Shown piece after piece: positions 3,360 to 10,216 of a stretch of 64,000 nt of DNA. The first letter of the stretch is position 1, and every line of letters begins with the position of its first letter. The notes beneath the pieces are model-generated. The model worked only from the letters and a program-made list of their open reading frames with translations. It ran no database searches and was not told where the DNA came from. The stretch is from Arthrobacter citreus (GTDB lineage Bacteria > Actinomycetota > Actinomycetes > Actinomycetales > Micrococcaceae): the NCBI RefSeq assembly GCF_038405225.1, contig NZ_CP151657.1, positions 2,232,001 to 2,296,000 on the forward strand, read 5' to 3'. The position numbers and the translations under genes were made by a program.

Positions 3360-4754
3360 ATGGCACCGGATCAGCAGCACCAGCACGACGGCGGCGCGCC
3401 CGTGCCGCCCAAGGCGGCCGGCAGCACGATTCTGGGCCGGGCCAGTTATCCGGAAGTCCTGCGCATCGGCGAAATCCTGCGCAAGGAAACGGTCGGCGGG
3501 ATCCTGCTGCTGATCGCCACGGTGGCGGCGCTGATCTGGGCCAACTCCCCGGCGTCGGACTCCTACTTCACCATCCGCGATTTCGACTTTGGCTACGAAC
3601 CGTGGCATCTGAAGCTCAGTGTCGGCGAGTGGGCCGCTGACGGCCTGCTCGCCGTCTTCTTTTTCCTGGTCGGACTGGAGCTCAAGCGCGAGTTCGTGGC
3701 CGGGGACCTGCGCCAGCTCAGCAAGGCGATCGTGCCCGTGGCCGCGGCGGCGGGCGGCGTCGTCGTTCCAGCGGTGATCTATGCCGTGATCAACGCGGTC
3801 TCCGGATCCGACGGGCTGCGCGGCTGGGCGATTCCCACCGCCACCGACATCGCCTTTGCCCTGGCCGTGCTGGCCGTCATCAGCTCGCATCTGCCCTCGG
3901 CGCTGCGGATTTTCCTGCTGACCCTGGCCGTGGTGGATGACCTGCTGGCCATCACCATCATCGCGTTCTTCTACACCGATGACCTTCACCTGCTGTATCT
4001 GGGCATCATGCTGGTGCCGCTGGCCCTGTTCCTGTATCTGGCGCAGTCCAAGCGCCGGATCTTTGCCACCCATCCCGCGGCCGCCTGGCTGATCCTGCTG
4101 CCGGTCGGGGTGGTGGTGTGGGCGCTTATGCATGCCTCGGGGGTGCATGCGACCGTTGCCGGCGTGCTGCTGGGCTTCTGCATTCCGGTGCTGCGCCGCG
4201 GCCCCGACGGCAAACCCGTGCAGCCGGAACCGGGCAAGCCGGGCCTGGCCGAGATCTTCGAGCACCGGTTCCGGCCAATCTCCGCCGGCTTCGCCGTTCC
4301 GGTGTTTGCATTCTTCTCCGCCGGTGTCGCCATCGGCGGGATCAGCGGTCTGGGCTCCGCGCTGACCGATCCGGTGGCGCTCGGCATCCTAGCCGGGCTG
4401 GTGGCCGGCAAGCCGCTGGGCATTCTGGCCACCACCTGGATCCTCACCGCCGCCACCCGGGCCAGGCTTGATGCCACGGTCAAATGGATCGACCTGTTCG
4501 GCATCGGCATTCTGGCCGGCATCGGCTTCACCGTCTCGCTGCTGGTCAATGACCTCAGCTTCGATCCGGGCACCGAGCACAATGACCACGCCAAGGTGGC
4601 AATCCTGGCGGCGTCGGTGACCGCCGCGCTGCTGGCCTCCATCCTGCTGCGGATCCGCAACCGGATTTACCGCCGCATCGAGGAGGAGGAAACCCGGGAT
4701 GAGGACGCCGACGGGATTCCGGATGTTTATGAGGACGACGACGGCGGGCGGTAG
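3360..4754 (+). CDS. nhaA: Na+/H+ antiporter NhaA
   Basis: A 464-residue membrane protein that expels Na+ (or Li+) in exchange for protons at the cytoplasmic membrane. A GAGGAG ribosome binding site precedes the ATG. Family motifs are intact: [18 protein letters not shown] in the first transmembrane helix, [13 protein letters not shown], the [16 protein letters not shown] segment carrying the first conserved Asp, and the paired Asp in [11 protein letters not shown] that binds the ion in Escherichia coli NhaA. The protein is longer than the 388-residue E. coli form. The extra length is an acidic C-terminal tail after residue 435 ([20 protein letters not shown]) and a short N-terminal extension. 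It appears to be a single-gene unit. Confidence 0.95.
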
Positions 4755-4767
4755 TTCTGCGGATACC

Positions 4768-5727
4768 TCAACACTTCTGGCCCCACGAATAGAACTGGTA
4801 GCCCTGCAGGTACACCGGGTCCCCAGCCAGAGATCCGTTCATGGGCTGAACCCGAACACTATAGGTGGCAAAGTACGGTGCCTCGCCGCTTTCCGGCTGT
4901 GGACGCATGATTCGGAAGGAGGCGCTGGTCCCGGTCGACAGCAGTTCGCCGCCGTAGCTGCGGTCCCCGTTGACCATCGTGACGGAATATCCTGTGGCGC
5001 CACTGGCGCCCGTCCAGCTCATCTTGAGATCTGAATACCCTGCCGCTCCGCCCACCGTCACGGGTGTGGAGCAAACCAGTGGTGCAACACTGCCCACGGG
5101 TGAAGCGCCAGTCGGTTCGCTCCAGTAGCAGTTACTGGTGTTGTAGTGCTCGTACTCGTAGGTGAAATACAGCGGATCACCCGGGACCGCGCCGGCCATG
5201 GGCATGACTCGTACGGTGTATTTCGTGTAGAACAGGGAAGGCCCGGTGCCGGGTTTACCGTTTTGATCTGCTAGCCGGTCAAAACGGAAGTCGGCAGCGG
5301 CCGCCGCCACGGTTTTAGATTGGTCGTACGTAAAGGTGCCGTTCTTTCCTTTCACTGTGACGACATAACTGGTGGCTCCGGCGGCGCCGGTCCAGGAGAA
5401 GCGGATGTCAGCGTAGTTGTTGGGGCGCATCTTTTCGTAGTCCAGCAGCGGCTTACAGGTGTAGCCATTGAGCGTCCCCGGCCTGGACTGGAGCGCAGGC
5501 TGCGCGCCAACCAGTGTGGTGTTGGCCGGCAGATCCGAACGCGTGGTGGCAGTGATGGCAACGGCAGCCGACTGGCTCCAATAGGCATACGCTGCCGTGC
5601 CGCCGATGCCCAGCACCACGGTCAGCGCAAACGCGATGACGGCGGTGCGGAAACCCGGCTGGGCACGAACCCATCCCAGTGCGCCGAGGCGCTGCCCGGG
5701 CTTGGCTCCCGATTCTTGCTTAGTCAT
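4768..5727 (-). CDS. Surface protein with alternate (SipW-type) signal peptide, FN3-like repeats
   Basis: A 319-residue protein. The ATG at 5727 follows an AAAGGG ribosome binding site. A basic cytoplasmic leader of about 30 residues precedes a hydrophobic stretch ending in TAAYAYWSQSA. The Trp right after the hydrophobic core is the same feature seen in the other substrates of this cluster (YAYWSL, YALWNA, LATWNA). The exported part has two similar domains, each with a SWTGA(A/S)GATSY/GYSV(T)V(K/M) strand pattern and Cys pairs, resembling fibronectin-III-like beta-sandwiches. Likely exported through Sec and cleaved by the signal peptidase encoded at 7324-8100. It is a paralogue of the next gene upstream. 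Confidence 0.65.
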   Translation of the reverse strand: MTKQESGAKPGQRLGALGWVRAQPGFRTAVIAFALTVVLGIGGTAAYAYWSQSAAVAITATTRSDLPANTTLVGAQPALQSRPGTLNGYTCKPLLDYEKMRPNNYADIRFSWTGAAGATSYVVTVKGKNGTFTYDQSKTVAAAAADFRFDRLADQNGKPGTGPSLFYTKYTVRVMPMAGAVPGDPLYFTYEYEHYNTSNCYWSEPTGASPVGSVAPLVCSTPVTVGGAAGYSDLKMSWTGASGATGYSVTMVNGDRSYGGELLSTGTSASFRIMRPQPESGEAPYFATYSVRVQPMNGSLAGDPVYLQGYQFYSWGQKC

Positions 5728-5829
5728 GCGACCCTTTCGGGCAGAGTTACGCGGTGAGGTGGCACCCGTCCCTGGCGGGAAGGACAACGAGCGTGCTTCG
5801 TGCGGATGGCCTGTGGACGGTTGACTTGA

Positions 5830-6417
5830 TCAGCAGGTAAACCATGAGATAAGGCTGCTGTTGGAACGCAGGCTGGTGGCGGGGCTGGCCTTGGACGGAG
5901 ATAAAATCTGGGTGCCCACATCTACTACTCCGGGCGCGGCCACTCCTGGAGCCAGGAACCCCGTCGATATTGTCATCGAACCGGTTCTCAGCCCCATCCA
6001 GGAGTTCAATGGTTCGCCGTTCACTCGAAGTGAGGCCGGCTCAAAGAAAGTGGTCTGCGCGGGGAACGCATAGTCAACGGTGTCTCTCGACGTTGAAATC
6101 CGGAGGACGTAGACAGCATCGCCCGGCATTCCAGCCGGAGCCGTCCAGCTGACGCGGGTATAAAAGGACCGGTCGTTGCAGATCGGCGCCGCTACGGACG
6201 GGAGATCTGGACGTTCGGTCGCCACGATGAGGTTCGCGTCAATTCTCAGGCTCCAGTAGGCATAAGCAGCAGACCCTCCGAGACCGAGAACCACCGTCAG
6301 CACGAACGCGATGGTCGCTGAGCGGAAGCCGGGCTGGGCCCGGAGACGAGTGAACCACCCTCCCCCGTTAGAGACAGATTCGCTGTCGGATGCAGCCCCC
6401 AGCTGCTTCTTACTCAT
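5830..6417 (-). CDS. Surface protein with alternate (SipW-type) signal peptide, short paralogue
   Basis: A 195-residue protein whose ATG at 6417 overlaps the upstream gene's stop by eight bases, so it is translationally coupled. The leader (WFTRLRAQPGFRSATIAF) and membrane-spanning region ending SAAYAYWSLRIDAN are nearly superimposable on those of the 319-residue neighbour (WVRAQPGFRTAVIAF, TAAYAYWSQSA), so the two N-termini are clearly paralogous. The exported part has one beta-sandwich-like domain (TRVSWTAPAGMPGDAVYVLRI), and a Cys is the last residue. It is probably a minor subunit or tip component of whatever the cluster builds. Confidence 0.6.
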   Translation of the reverse strand: MSKKQLGAASDSESVSNGGGWFTRLRAQPGFRSATIAFVLTVVLGLGGSAAYAYWSLRIDANLIVATERPDLPSVAAPICNDRSFYTRVSWTAPAGMPGDAVYVLRISTSRDTVDYAFPAQTTFFEPASLRVNGEPLNSWMGLRTGSMTISTGFLAPGVAAPGVVDVGTQILSPSKASPATSLRSNSSLISWFTC

Positions 6418-7324
6418 ACCGGCCTTCCCGGACCCGAAATACAACTGCGGCCGCAAAAAGTACAAACACTGCTATCAGGAGCGTACCTGAAAGCGACCGA
6501 ATGATCGGTTCCACTGTGCTCTGGAAACCAGCCGGAACAATCTCCGCCGGGGGTTGTTGCACGGCCGGGGCAGCAGCCTGCGGTGGACGTGTTTCAACCT
6601 GGCGTTCCGGCAACGCAGCCGGGAAAACAGTGTTGGACAGCGCGGCAGGACCGCCGCCGGATGTTCCGGGCAGGGTCACCAGTTCCTGGCGGGTCCCGTT
6701 CGCTGCGCTCCCGCTGAGGTCTTCCGGAGGTGTTGCCGACCCGGCCGGAGGCTGGACGGGTCCGGACAGCGCGTCACAGGCCTGGCGCGGTGCAGCGTCC
6801 TGGGATTCCAAGAGGAAAACCACATCAAAATCTGCAGAGCGGTTCATCGTGTCATTCGAAGCGTCAGTGGAAAGGTCGACGACGAGGCCCAGTTCGAGTT
6901 CCTCGCCGGCGGCCATGTCCCAGATCTCAGGGACATCGGTGCAGCTTCCCACCCCACCCATAAGGGAGCGAACCGGCAAGTTGGAGGTAAGCCCTGCGGC
7001 CAGGCCGAGCTGCCGATTCAACTCGGGATCCGACCGGACCATAATCGCAGCCGAGGACAGCCGGGCCGGCTCCCCGCTGCCGTTGCGGATCCAGATGGTG
7101 GCGCTGGTTGTTGCGCCGGGAACAAATTGCAGCGCGTCGGTGAAGATGGGTCCCGCTATGGACGGAGCGTACGTTTTCCCGTCGAGGCTGAATTCCAGAT
7201 AGTCATTGGCTGCGAAGGCACCGGGTGCTCCGGCCAGGGAAACGGCTGCAGCAACGGCACCGACGGCGGTGGCGCCGATCAGTCGCCGGCACCATCCCGC
7301 CGTGGATGCGGTAAACCGGTTCAT
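6410..7324 (-). CDS. Secreted, C-terminally membrane-anchored protein of the SipW cluster
   Basis: A 304-residue protein with a conventional Sec signal peptide (AGAPGAFAAN, cleavage likely after AFA), unlike its neighbours. The ectodomain starts with a YLEFSLDGKTYAPSIAGPIF strand region, has two widely spaced Cys, and ends in a Pro/Ala/Gln-rich stalk (about residues 200-265). A single transmembrane helix (TLLIAVFVLFAAAVVF) and a short basic tail follow. Its ATG overlaps the signal peptidase stop by one base. A membrane-tethered ectodomain in a cluster of exported beta-proteins suggests an anchor or assembly partner. Function is inferred from position only. Confidence 0.6.
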   Translation of the reverse strand: MNRFTASTAGWCRRLIGATAVGAVAAAVSLAGAPGAFAANDYLEFSLDGKTYAPSIAGPIFTDALQFVPGATTSATIWIRNGSGEPARLSSAAIMVRSDPELNRQLGLAAGLTSNLPVRSLMGGVGSCTDVPEIWDMAAGEELELGLVVDLSTDASNDTMNRSADFDVVFLLESQDAAPRQACDALSGPVQPPAGSATPPEDLSGSAANGTRQELVTLPGTSGGGPAALSNTVFPAALPERQVETRPPQAAAPAVQQPPAEIVPAGFQSTVEPIIRSLSGTLLIAVFVLFAAAVVFRVREGRYE

Positions 7325-8100
7325 CAGACGGTGGCATGCTTTCGGATCTCGGTGCGGTGTCCGCGGGTTGAGGGGTAGCCGGTGGAGTGGTCGTGGTCGC
7401 AGCCATCGCAGTCCGTCAGGATGGGATCGCCGGATTCGAGGTACTCGAAACCACTCTCAGCAGACGAGCCGAAAGTCGGGAAGATGGAGTCATCGTCGCT
7501 ACCGGCGCCGGGACCCTGTTCGGTAGGGCCTTCCGGGGATGCGTCGTCGTCCTTGCGCTTCTTAGCCAGGGCGCCGCGGACCAGCGTGATCACGCCGTAA
7601 CCCATGAGTGCGACGGCACCCCACTGGGCAATGGCACCGCGGTCGGAGTTGCCCAGGCCGTTGGCGATGAAGCCAACAAACGGCACCGCGTAGAAGAGTT
7701 TGCCCTTCACCTGGATTTCGCGGACGGGCAGTTCGTCTTCAACGCTGTTGTTGTCGCCCTTGGTGGTGAAGATGGTTTCGCCGCTCTGATCCGCGCCCAC
7801 GGAGGTAACGCGGTGGGTAATGACGGCGGGTGAGCCGGATTCGATCTGGTAGGTGATGATGTCGCCGACGGTCAGTTCTTCAAAGGGAACGGGCTTCACC
7901 ACGAGGAAGGTGCCTGGGGCATACTTCGGGGCCATGGAGCTGGTGAGCACGCTGTAGGTCTGGGAGCCGGTAATCATGGGCACAACCACCAGGGCCAGGG
8001 CCGCCATGGCAGTCAGGCACAGCGCGAGGTAACTAAGACCGGTGCCAACGACGCTGAGGACGGTGGTGGGCTTTTCTGCTCTTCTGCGGCCGTGCGACAT
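7324..8100 (-). CDS. sipW: Signal peptidase I, SipW/archaeal type
   Basis: A 258-residue membrane protease. The ATG at 8100 has an AAAGGA ribosome binding site. A hydrophobic N-terminal helix (about residues 16-45) leads into the catalytic segment: nucleophile Ser55 in TSSMAP, His96 in VITHRV in place of the Lys of the bacterial Lep type, and Asp116 in TTKGDNN. This Ser-His(-Asp) arrangement defines the SipW/archaeal/ER class, which in Bacillus processes the biofilm fibre protein TasA. A second transmembrane helix follows (about residues 160-180). The long C-terminal tail is hydrophilic and unusually rich in Asp, Cys and His (DCDGCDHDHS). Neighbouring genes encode four probable substrates. 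Confidence 0.88.
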   Translation of the reverse strand: MSHGRRRAEKPTTVLSVVGTGLSYLALCLTAMAALALVVVPMITGSQTYSVLTSSMAPKYAPGTFLVVKPVPFEELTVGDIITYQIESGSPAVITHRVTSVGADQSGETIFTTKGDNNSVEDELPVREIQVKGKLFYAVPFVGFIANGLGNSDRGAIAQWGAVALMGYGVITLVRGALAKKRKDDDASPEGPTEQGPGAGSDDDSIFPTFGSSAESGFEYLESGDPILTDCDGCDHDHSTGYPSTRGHRTEIRKHATV

Positions 8101-8135
8101 GTTGACTATCCTTTGCTGTGCATCGTTGTTACCGG

Positions 8136-8672
8136 TCATGCCGGCATTTGACTGACGGTGAGCGCGGCGGGAACGGTGGTTGTTCTGCCCAGAATCGATA
8201 CCGGGGTATTTGCCTTCAGTGTTGCCTTGACGCAAATGGTTTTGCTCTGCTCTTTGGCGATGACGCCCAAGTCCGGCATTCCGGCGTATGTGGCTGTCTC
8301 ACAGCTCTGGCCTGCAAGCGGCACCGTGGTCTGAATAGTCAGATATTCGGCGAAACCCTCAGTTGCCAGGCCAGCAGTAACTTTCGGTTTGACGGTCATC
8401 GCGCTGGTGGCATTCACCTTGTTGGTAACCACAAAACTGGTGAACGAGTTGCCGCCGGGCTTGATCTCCGCGAGATTGAGGGCCAGGGGCTGCGCCAGGG
8501 ATTTCATTTCCACGTTGTTCACCAGGATCCTGAAATCCGCGGACTGAACGGTTCCGGCGTTGGACGGAACCACCGCATTCCATAGTGCATAACTCCCCTG
8601 GACCGTCATGAGGCCAAGCACCACGGCCACGATGATCAAACCGGCCGCTTTCAGTGCTCGAAGGCTCTTCAT
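8136..8672 (-). CDS. SipW-dependent-type signal peptide exported protein (TasA/camelysin-like candidate)
   Basis: A 178-residue protein. The N-terminus has a short basic part and the hydrophobic run LIIVAVVLGLMTVQGSYALW, followed by NAVVPSNAGTVQSADF. This 'LW-N-x(4-6)-G-x-(I/V)-x-(S/A)-(A/G)-(D/E)-(F/L)' pattern is the hallmark of substrates of SipW-type peptidases such as TasA and CalY. The mature part is small, Thr/Val-rich and all-beta in appearance, with two Cys (SCETAT, TICVKA) that could pair. It lies 35 bases upstream of the signal peptidase gene on the same strand. I infer a surface or extracellular-fibre subunit. Confidence 0.7.
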   Translation of the reverse strand: MKSLRALKAAGLIIVAVVLGLMTVQGSYALWNAVVPSNAGTVQSADFRILVNNVEMKSLAQPLALNLAEIKPGGNSFTSFVVTNKVNATSAMTVKPKVTAGLATEGFAEYLTIQTTVPLAGQSCETATYAGMPDLGVIAKEQSKTICVKATLKANTPVSILGRTTTVPAALTVSQMPA

Positions 8673-8757
8673 CGGTTTTGTCTCCAGGGGGAACAGGCTG
8701 TGCGCGGAGCATGCGCGCCGCGCACAGCCGGGGGTTAGAACAAGATGGTGCTTGGAA

Positions 8758-9345
8758 CTACGGGGTGGTGACCGGAGCGGGAGCCTGGGTGGCGGTGGTG
8801 GCGGTCGGGACGTTCTGCTCCAGCTTGAAGCCGACGCCGCTCAGGGCCTGTGTCTGCGTCATGGAAGCGGTGGTGTTTGAGCTCATGTTGGTGAAGTCAA
8901 CCACCAGGCGGGCCTTGACGGTCTGGACGCCGGCTGCGAGCTGCAGCGGGGTGGCGGTGACGCCGGAGGTTGCGGGGGTCCAGCTGGTGCCATTGTTGGT
9001 GCTGTATTCCATGGTGATGTTCGCCTCGTTGCCGAAGGCCTTGGCAACCGCATCCGTGGTCTTCAGGTTGGCGGTGATCCGGTCTCCAACCAGGGTGACC
9101 GCGAGGTCCTGCGAGTAGGTCAGCTTCTCGCCGGGAACCATCTTGTAATCTGCAACCCGGATGGCGCCGGCCGTCATGTTGCTGGCCCAGGTTCCGGTGC
9201 CAGCCGTCATCTTCAGCTCACCGGCAGCGATGGTGCCGGCGTTGGCTGCCTGGGTCGCGTTCCAGGTGGCGAGGGTTCCGCCGCCGCCGAGAAGCAGTGC
9301 TACGCCTACGCCGGTTGCCAGTGCGCCTTTAGCCATCTTGTTCAT
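8758..9345 (-). CDS. Alternate-type signal peptide exported protein (RER_14450-like family)
   Basis: A 195-residue protein, first gene of the minus-strand cluster. The leader GALATGVGVALLLGGGGTLATW is followed by NATQAANAGTIAAGELKM, the same cleavage-region pattern as the gene at 8136-8672. Actinobacterial proteins of this kind are described as alternate signal-mediated exported proteins that occur next to a SipW-like peptidase. The mature part is Thr/Ala/Asn-rich, has no Cys, and ends in a Thr/Ala/Pro tail. An AAGGGG ribosome binding site precedes the ATG. By composition and first position it is the best candidate for the major, abundant subunit. Confidence 0.72.
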   Translation of the reverse strand: MNKMAKGALATGVGVALLLGGGGTLATWNATQAANAGTIAAGELKMTAGTGTWASNMTAGAIRVADYKMVPGEKLTYSQDLAVTLVGDRITANLKTTDAVAKAFGNEANITMEYSTNNGTSWTPATSGVTATPLQLAAGVQTVKARLVVDFTNMSSNTTASMTQTQALSGVGFKLEQNVPTATTATQAPAPVTTP

Positions 9346-9370
9346 TGTGTTCCCCTTGTTCGTTTTGCTT

Positions 9371-9381
9371 GAAACCGTTTC
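9371..9381. promoter_or_regulatory. Palindrome upstream of the SipW cluster
   Basis: GAAAC-C-GTTTC is a perfect palindrome with one central base, 26 bases upstream of the first cluster gene. It resembles LacI-type half sites, although those usually have an even-numbered centre. It is a candidate operator; no regulator gene is adjacent. Confidence 0.35.
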
Positions 9382-9539
9382 GGCCTAGGAAGGTTTTCCT
9401 TGCCGCTGGGTATTACTTTGCCGCCCGGTCCTCAAGAAACAACGCGTCCTTCCCACAGGGTTCTTGCAACGTTTGGCCAAAGCTCAAGGGCCACACAAGG
9501 TAACCTCAACATCAGCGCAATCAGCCCGGAATCGACCCG

Positions 9540-9615
9540 AAAACACTCGGATTCGACGCTGAAAGCACCCGCAAAGCAGTCCAAAAGCACGCATAAACAG
9601 CACAAAAACCCGAAA
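9540..9615. promoter_or_regulatory. Helically phased A-tracts (possible bent DNA)
   Basis: Runs of three to five A occur at 9562-9564, 9573-9575, 9583-9586, 9595-9597, 9604-9608 and 9613-9615, spaced about 10-11 bases centre to centre except the last. A-tracts in phase with the helix cause intrinsic curvature. The element lies just upstream of the phosphatase gene at 9641. Confidence 0.4.
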
Positions 9616-9640
9616 CCGGCACGATCTGAAGCCCGAGGAC

Positions 9641-10216
9641 ATGAGCACCAACACCCCGTTCCGCATCCTGACCGTCTGCACCGGCAACATCTGCCGCTCC
9701 CCCATGGCCGAGCGCCTGCTCCAGACCGGCTTCGATCAGATGGCCCCGGGAGAGTTCACGGTGGCGAGCGCCGGCACCGGCGCCCTGGTGGGCTCGGGCA
9801 TCGAACCCCACGTGGCCGGGTTCATCCATGTCTTCGGCGCGGACTCCAGCAACTTTGTCTCCCGCCAGCTCAACGCCAACATCCTCGCCGGCCAGGGTCT
9901 GGTGCTCGCGCTCACCCGGGCGCACCGCAGCAAGATCGTGGAGTTGGCCCCGGGCCTGCTGCGCCGCACCTTCACGCTGCGCGAGTTGGCCCGGCTCCTT
10001 CCGTTGGTGGAGGGACAGCGCGACGTCGGCGCCTCCGAACGCTGGACAGCGGCTGTCGCCAGGGCACTGCGGCTGCGCACCGCAAACCCGGTGGGTCCGG
10101 AAGAGGACGACGTCGTGGACCCCTACCGCCGCAGCGAGGACGTGTACCAGCAGATGGTCCACCAGCTCACGCCGGCCGTGGACACTCTGCTGTCCTGGGA
10201 ACGCAAGCACCGGTGA
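9641..10216 (+). CDS. Low-molecular-weight protein-tyrosine phosphatase
   Basis: A 191-residue cytoplasmic enzyme that removes phosphate from phosphotyrosine. The P-loop CTGNICRS gives nucleophile Cys13 and Arg19 at the usual N-terminal position, and the general-acid Asp160-Pro161 (VVDPYRRS) is present. A GAGGA ribosome binding site precedes the ATG. It is longer than the 150-160 residues typical of the family, with extra sequence in the middle. In actinobacteria such enzymes often act opposite BY-type tyrosine kinases in capsule export. One such kinase is encoded at 34929-36440, but a link is only inference. The stop overlaps the start of the VanZ-like gene. Confidence 0.9.
   Translation: MSTNTPFRILTVCTGNICRSPMAERLLQTGFDQMAPGEFTVASAGTGALVGSGIEPHVAGFIHVFGADSSNFVSRQLNANILAGQGLVLALTRAHRSKIVELAPGLLRRTFTLRELARLLPLVEGQRDVGASERWTAAVARALRLRTANPVGPEEDDVVDPYRRSEDVYQQMVHQLTPAVDTLLSWERKHR

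Follow-up and report, generated by a model that had tools for sequence, protein, structure and literature searches.

Among described systems, tapA-sipW-tasA of Bacillus subtilis most closely resembles a block of six genes in Arthrobacter citreus (assembly GCF_038405225.1, contig NZ_CP151657.1), analysed here within a stretch of 64,000 nucleotides (the window; contig positions 2,232,001 to 2,296,000). The block occupies positions 9345-4768 of the window, all six genes lying on the minus strand in the order A, B, SipW, T, Y1, Y2, and it encodes two TasA-like proteins (A and B), a SipW-type signal peptidase, a membrane-tethered protein (T), and two proteins with a conserved leader and a variable remainder (Y1 and Y2, together Y). 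In both systems, the peptidase gene adjoins those of its likely substrates; a TasA-like subunit has an aromatic residue at its (here predicted) mature position 2, a Pro-Gly pair and a Gln in its last strand; and a minor protein combines a donor-like N-terminus with its own Ig/FN3-type domain. The Arthrobacter locus differs from that of B. subtilis in its two TasA-like subunits, in the replacement of TapA by Y with its variable outer domain, in the tethered T, an apparent relative of B with an ordinary Sec leader, in the gene order A-B-SipW-T-Y, in a hairpin after A, and in proteins that score below the equivalog cut-offs for SipW and TasA of Bacillus.

Two TasA-like subunits with an accessory assembly protein are also present in the TasA-CalY-CapP system of Bacillus cereus, as far as the available part of its description extends (PMC13082335). 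However, CapP is described there as a DUF4047 domain, modelled as helical, followed by QKKV/AEE repeats, unlike either Y or T, and the same part mentions no membrane-tethered TasA-like protein comparable to the T found here (PMC13082335). Archaeal bundling pili (AbpA, 7ueg) and the cannulae of Pyrodictium (CanA) are likewise secreted filaments of beta-sandwich subunits, and they match T and A structurally, respectively. To our knowledge, neither a Y-like variable end subunit nor a T-like base is known in these archaeal filaments. Bundling pili have been termed TasA-like in the available part of PMC9674648. At the level of single proteins, A is a member of the known NCBI family TIGR04089, and the peptidase is a member of TIGR02228; these models name neither a locus, a filament nor a base.

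The block very probably constitutes a SipW-type locus for the export of TasA-like proteins, and it is likely that its products form a fibre. The arrangement that we cautiously favour is a donor-strand TasA-like surface filament in which Y, at one end, would only donate a strand and T, held in the membrane as the base, would only accept one; the polarity itself, with Y and T at opposite ends, is offered tentatively. The original prediction, made from the DNA letters alone, held such a system to be undescribed in a relative of Arthrobacter. The nearest named relatives are indeed Arthrobacter (A. gandavensis, A. luteolus, A. citreus, A. koreensis and others), and no actinobacterial SipW filament locus was recognised in searches of an open-access library, as judged by titles and the beginnings of abstracts. 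New here are the anatomy of a possible capped filament, in which T would be the base and Y the exchangeable end, and the strong variation of its exposed parts.

The signal peptidase and the Trp leaders

The peptidase passes TIGR02228 (83.3 bits; cut-off 51.85) and lies below the Bacillus SipW equivalog NF046067 (71.7 against 190 bits). Its active site is of the Ser-His rather than the Ser-Lys type; Ser55, His96 and the motif GDNN were invariant in 14/14 sequences of an alignment composed of the window protein and 13 relatives chosen by hand. Within its own genome, the SipW gene was the sole match at E <= 0.001.

As the original prediction had it, this peptidase is surrounded by four proteins with Trp-motif leaders, ending in GTLATWNA (A), GSYALWNA (B), AAYAYWSL (Y1) and AAYAYWSQ (Y2); the last two are evidently paralogous, as also proposed, and the motif can be refined to (A/S/T)-x-A-x-W with a predicted cut behind its Ala. 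The Trp was invariant in the aligned families of A (43/43; the window protein and 42 of 73 relatives), B (38/38; with 37 of 73), Y2 (18/18; with 17 of 25) and Y1 (25/25; with 24 of 47), and Ala two before it was found at >= 90% in the Y1 family. The motif exceeds chance, since A-x-W directly behind an N-terminal hydrophobic segment occurred in just 14 of the 107 remaining genes called in these loci; 10 of the 12 such genes listed resemble orthologues of two membrane proteins. With the SipW-substrate models, only A passes and B falls short.

TasA matures at residue 28, which places Phe29 at mature position 2, and this residue participates in an interface proline box with P62, F200 and Q232 (PMC10151520, available part). 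By analogy, a cut after the Ala two before Trp would make Trp the second mature residue of all four proteins, and this SipW would thus release A, B and Y with an aromatic residue at position 2 of a free N-terminal strand.

Two further observations concern the peptidase. Its second helix is followed by an acidic tail (window 7324-7548) that has C-x-x-C near its end in 23/29 proteins of the genus and C-x-C in the remaining 6/29, and a C-x-x-C tail was found in 0/64 SipW proteins from outside the genus; a role in metal or redox sensing is possible. In five of the related loci (cited here by L numbers), namely L124 (7461-8600), L126, L127, L129 and L130, two signal peptidase genes are close together, convergently in L124, and these pairs may serve separate sets of substrates.

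Proteins A and B as putative filament subunits

Protein A exceeds the cut-offs of both TIGR04089 (exp_by_SipW_III, with an alternate-type signal peptide; 118.4 against 60 bits) and TIGR04088 (23.4 against 19 bits). All 43 members of its family match TIGR04089 and 39/43 the SipW-substrate leader model, while the B. subtilis TasA model is matched by 5/43 (best E 6.9e-7) and Pfam PF12389 of the TasA/camelysin family by 11/43 (E <= 0.05; best E 1.1e-4). Searches of the own genome returned A, B and one place at chance level (E 2.2) with TIGR04088, and no match with PF12389. Protein B scores 14.7 bits with TIGR04088, under the cut-off of 19, and 15/38 members of its family match at E <= 0.01. Comparison of A with B by hhalign gave 95% at full length and 0.1% to 20% without the leaders, so that their kinship derives mostly from the N-terminal part. 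The TasA/CalY-like pair of the original prediction is therefore supported by family models and by TasA-matching relatives for A, and by kinship for B.

Residues W28, P71, G72 and Q177 of A were invariant in 43/43 sequences, with Q177 in the last predicted strand, and W28, P71 and Q177 can be paired by position, without a joint alignment, with F29, P62 and Q232 of TasA (PMC10151520, available part). In B, W31 and Q175 were found in 38/38 sequences and the counterpart Pro in 28/38; C124 and C147 are also invariant. Because these counterparts of TasA interface residues are conserved, they provide the strongest evidence that A and B may polymerise in the manner of TasA. They also argue, as do the matches of A relatives to TasA models, the conserved N-terminal strand of Y and the kinship of T with B (both below), against the view that the locus encodes separate surface or secreted proteins, such as adhesins, enzymes or a surface coat, that use one dedicated signal peptidase and form no fibre. 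That view, which we consider quite improbable, draws on the facts that polymerisation of the locus proteins is inferred only and that the structural matches of A and T are mostly generic beta-sandwiches.

Structure prediction, suggested originally for all four substrates, was run for A. The model had a mean predicted local distance difference test (pLDDT) score of 74, and its residues 6-36 fell below 50, giving a disordered N-terminus as expected for a strand without its partner. The TasA fibre 8aur was ranked first by Foldseek (E 3.2e-3, a weak match), and the rows returned for A by VIA-align (VIA) include several pilins; overall, the models lend weak support to the folds of A and T. When profiles built for A, B, T and Y2 were run against the PDB sequences, no credible relative emerged; one match of A (E 2e-4), to a designed trefoil knot, consisted of low-scoring repeated pieces and was judged spurious. 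Extra A-like genes were noted downstream of Y in two Arthrobacter genomes, one at L156:11224-11793 and two at L157:11467-12621.

Proteins Y and T as putative filament ends

Conservation in Y covers the leader and continues for 12 to 14 residues beyond Trp, the remainder being variable, as profiled with 75 of 86 Y proteins for which an A-x-W anchor was required. The conserved segment approximates to W-(S/Q)-Q-S-(A/T)-T-A-T-(M/I)-T-V-T-(A/T), a putative strand with Thr alternating with hydrophobic residues. In the separate family alignments, A51 and W55 of Y1 (25/25) and A48 and W50 of Y2 (18/18) are invariant. The two repeats of Y2 match each other at 99.85% in hhalign, and Pfam fn3 is matched by 7/18 members of the Y2 family and 2/25 of the Y1 family, with neither window protein among them. 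The FN3-like folds originally assigned to both thus find support through relatives for Y2 and weakly so for Y1. TIGR04088 was matched by 3/25 Y1 family members (E <= 0.05), not including the window Y1, and the TapA model was absent from the NCBIfam matches of Y1 and Y2. As judged from sequence, Y would carry a strand to donate together with an FN3-like domain that is already complete and hence unable to accept; it would cap or start the fibre and display a swappable outer domain.

Both Y1 and Y2 are present in the window and in L111, while Y1 alone occurs in 19 loci and Y2 alone in seven. On a quick tree of SipW and T with a long branch for L099 (alignment A6, without L118, which shares an identical SipW core with L104), the type of Y changed at least seven times; labels shuffled at random gave a mean of 7.8, with 36% of 300 shuffles as low, so there is no signal of descent. 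Such frequent exchange of the outer domain suggests outward display rather than chaperoning, and thereby counts against a second alternative, which we regard as unlikely: a secreted matrix fibre as in Bacillus, with unordered ends, formed by co-polymerisation of A and B; Y would be a low-abundance chaperone or nucleator like TapA or CapP, and T an accessory protein outside the fibre. This alternative has precedents in TapA, which combines a complete Ig fold with an N-terminus that it donates to TasA (PMC10151520, available part), and in the TasA/CalY co-polymers of B. cereus with their chaperone-like CapP (PMC13082335, available part).

Protein T is the sole one of the five exported proteins with an ordinary Sec leader (AFA/AN), and it has a C-terminal helix, both as originally predicted; its role as a membrane anchor is likely. 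Almost nothing separates the predicted cut from the first strand, and T appears from its sequence to be without both a SipW-type leader and an N-terminal strand. An AlphaFold2 (AF2) model contained blocks of pLDDT 81-96 within residues 41-190, and P69-G70 is kept in 30/30 sequences (the window T and all 29 relatives). The profile of T matched that of B at 84%; the reversed profile gave 0.5%, and block shuffles reached a maximum of 18%, 0/40 being as high, and hence the T domain looks related to B. Structural matches of T were mostly to generic sandwiches (MSP domains, FimH/FmlH and hexosaminidases; best Z 9.9), with FimA included and the Pyrobaculum bundling pilus 7ueg at rank 4 in Foldseek (E 1.6e-3); TasA (8aur) was not among the best 50 matches of either Foldseek or VIA.

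In L163, L172 and L188, T ends with LAxTG, a helix and a basic tail, which we take to be the layout of class E sortase substrates; LAxTG is located in the linker of T in L137, and members of the T family are matched by three NCBIfam models of the LAxTG type. The C-terminal LPxTG-type signal expected of sortase-assembled pili was looked for in the window T, the one window protein scanned; no L[AP]xTG occurs within its 70 C-terminal residues. In some relatives, T would thus probably be held by a sortase signal.

Distribution and variation

Among 119 related genomes searched, SipW, T and the Y leader were found in 29/29 genomes of the genus, own included. After dropping identical SipW cores, 92 of 113 loci were kept. 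Every one of the 28 distinct genus loci has B, SipW, T and Y, and all but one, which lies at a contig end, have A as well (27); the order A-B-SipW-T-Y recurs; with B, SipW, T and Y in 28/28, the locus is a core feature of the genus. Of 52 further distinct loci, 50 have A, B, SipW and Y, and T is present in 12; these loci, many named Arthrobacter, were picked by SipW similarity, and 50/52 is accordingly not a population frequency. With 12 loci at the order or family level added (n=64), A-B-SipW-Y was found in 55 and T in 18.

Across five close relatives, the median identities of leader and mature part were 89 and 42% for A, 87 and 32% for B, and 75 and 18% for Y (Y1 and Y2 mixed), with 87% for SipW and 69% for the ectodomain of T. 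Genus-wide, the corresponding values were 86 and 36% (A), 77 and 33% (B), and 72 and 21% (Y), with 73% for SipW. Conserved leaders with variable mature parts are as expected of exposed subunits. At the DNA level, the mature part of A (~8749-9204) cannot be aligned with L091, L094 and L093 while both flanks align at ~78 to 83%, which suggests that alleles of A have been exchanged between species across conserved flanks. This mature part is shared with L111 (protein identity 92%); L111 and L137 are from Arthrobacter sp. APC 3897.

The proposed filament

In the donor-strand filament that we favour, A, together with B, would be able to polymerise through its N-terminal strand and open beta-sandwich, with strands presumably exchanged between subunits, and T, a membrane-held sandwich without an N-terminal strand, would accept only and form the base. 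A more specific version, which we put forward as no better than doubtful, is a polar actinobacterial pilus with a donor-only tip whose outer domain is exchanged behind a constant leader and strand, a shaft of A and B, and, fixed in the membrane or wall, a B-like base that would only accept. The mature parts of the putative shaft proteins A and B vary strongly, that of A apparently by exchange between species.

A number of results weigh against the filament. The window A scored under both PF12389 (11.5 against 22.5 bits) and the TasA model NF046066 (12.4 against 450), and neither Y1 nor Y2 of the window is recognised by any SipW-leader model. The Foldseek match of the A model to TasA had template modelling (TM) scores of 0.28/0.25, and 8aur was not among the top 50 matches of A in VIA, where the best rows were those of the cannula protein CanA (Z 7.0). 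Profile comparison of A with T gave nothing, and given the low A-B scores without leaders, B is the one link between T and TasA. A linker strand of low confidence in the T model (214-222), up to which the structural matches of T extend, might already fill the groove that would otherwise accept. T is missing from 40 of the 52 further loci, and a crude scan recognised no substitute in 43 of 44 loci without T. Finally, TIGR04089 is rare in an even draw across the phylum, with matches in 5/246 genomes, two over the cut-off, one of these being the own genome. The absence of T from so many loci would also be expected of the secreted matrix fibre, with T outside it; however, the presence of T in 28/28 genus loci, the overlap of its gene in the window with those of SipW and Y1, and the kinship of its domain with B speak for a part in the structure.

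If the favoured filament is real, the TasA-type fibre would be extended to Arthrobacter and relatives and would gain a defined base as well as an end that can be interchanged, and a function would be suggested for a family of NCBI-named exported proteins. The polar pilus, if true, would represent an architecture like that of chaperone-usher pili in Gram-positive bacteria, built with neither an usher nor sortase polymerisation. The contrast between constant leaders and variable mature parts would point to the exposed fibre being under strong selection, with phages and kin recognition as examples.

Non-coding elements

A hairpin follows A (z -5.23), at one place in the genome. A stem of at least 11 pairs was found in 25/28 genus loci compared to 2.1% of 870 control pieces, and two-sided changes affected 5/12 pairs, a value reached by 0/500 shuffles, which ignore relatedness; the count of pair types was not above that of shuffles (380/500 reach it). 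Rfam at gathering scores returned nothing for window positions 4500-10000. We propose that the hairpin keeps A in excess over the downstream genes, either through partial termination or through a more stable A transcript. The mean G+C content at third codon positions (GC3) is highest in A (0.833; 28 genus genes), followed by SipW (0.796) and by B, T and Y (0.72 to 0.74), and this fits, with the conserved hairpin, A as the major subunit.

Upstream of A, a block of approximately 120 bases shows strong conservation among 27 genus sequences, making this region a candidate site of tight regulation; no match of the sigma-70 type was found in it. The heptamer CTCAAGR, present twice upstream of A, was rejected as a signal, its frequency in the window being no higher than chance.

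Layout of the locus

Positions of the six genes and two non-coding elements are compiled in Table 1.

Table 1. Features of the SipW-type locus, in window coordinates.
Feature	Position	Strand	Evidence
Upstream block, non-coding; candidate promoter/regulatory region, coordinates approximate	9398..9520	-	Consensus of 27 genus sequences
A, predicted major TasA/CalY-like filament subunit; SipW-type leader, mature from ~residue 27	8758..9345	-	TIGR04089, Foldseek, invariant residues, GC3
Hairpin between A and B, conserved; 12-bp stem, no T-run	8696..8729	-	z -5.23, genus conservation, two-sided changes
B, second TasA-like subunit; SipW-type leader, two invariant Cys	8136..8672	-	hhalign to A, TIGR04088 in relatives
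SipW-type (Ser-His, ER-type) signal peptidase; genus-specific C-terminal tail	7324..8100	-	TIGR02228, Ser55/His96
T, predicted base; ordinary Sec signal peptide, beta-sandwich, flexible linker, C-terminal membrane helix	6410..7324	-	AF2, profile match to B
Y1, SipW-type-like leader, conserved strand, one variable domain, probably beta	5830..6417	-	Family conservation
Y2, leader and strand of the Y1 kind, two FN3-like repeats	4768..5727	-	hhalign of repeats, fn3 in relatives

The block is flanked by a gene for a Na+/H+ antiporter and one for a low-molecular-weight phosphatase; among the genus loci listed, the former was found again, and the latter in some only. Translation of Y1, Y2 and SipW probably begins at inner ATGs. 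The arrangement on one strand with overlaps of up to eight bases, noted originally, is correct, SipW and T overlapping by one base and T and Y1 by eight.

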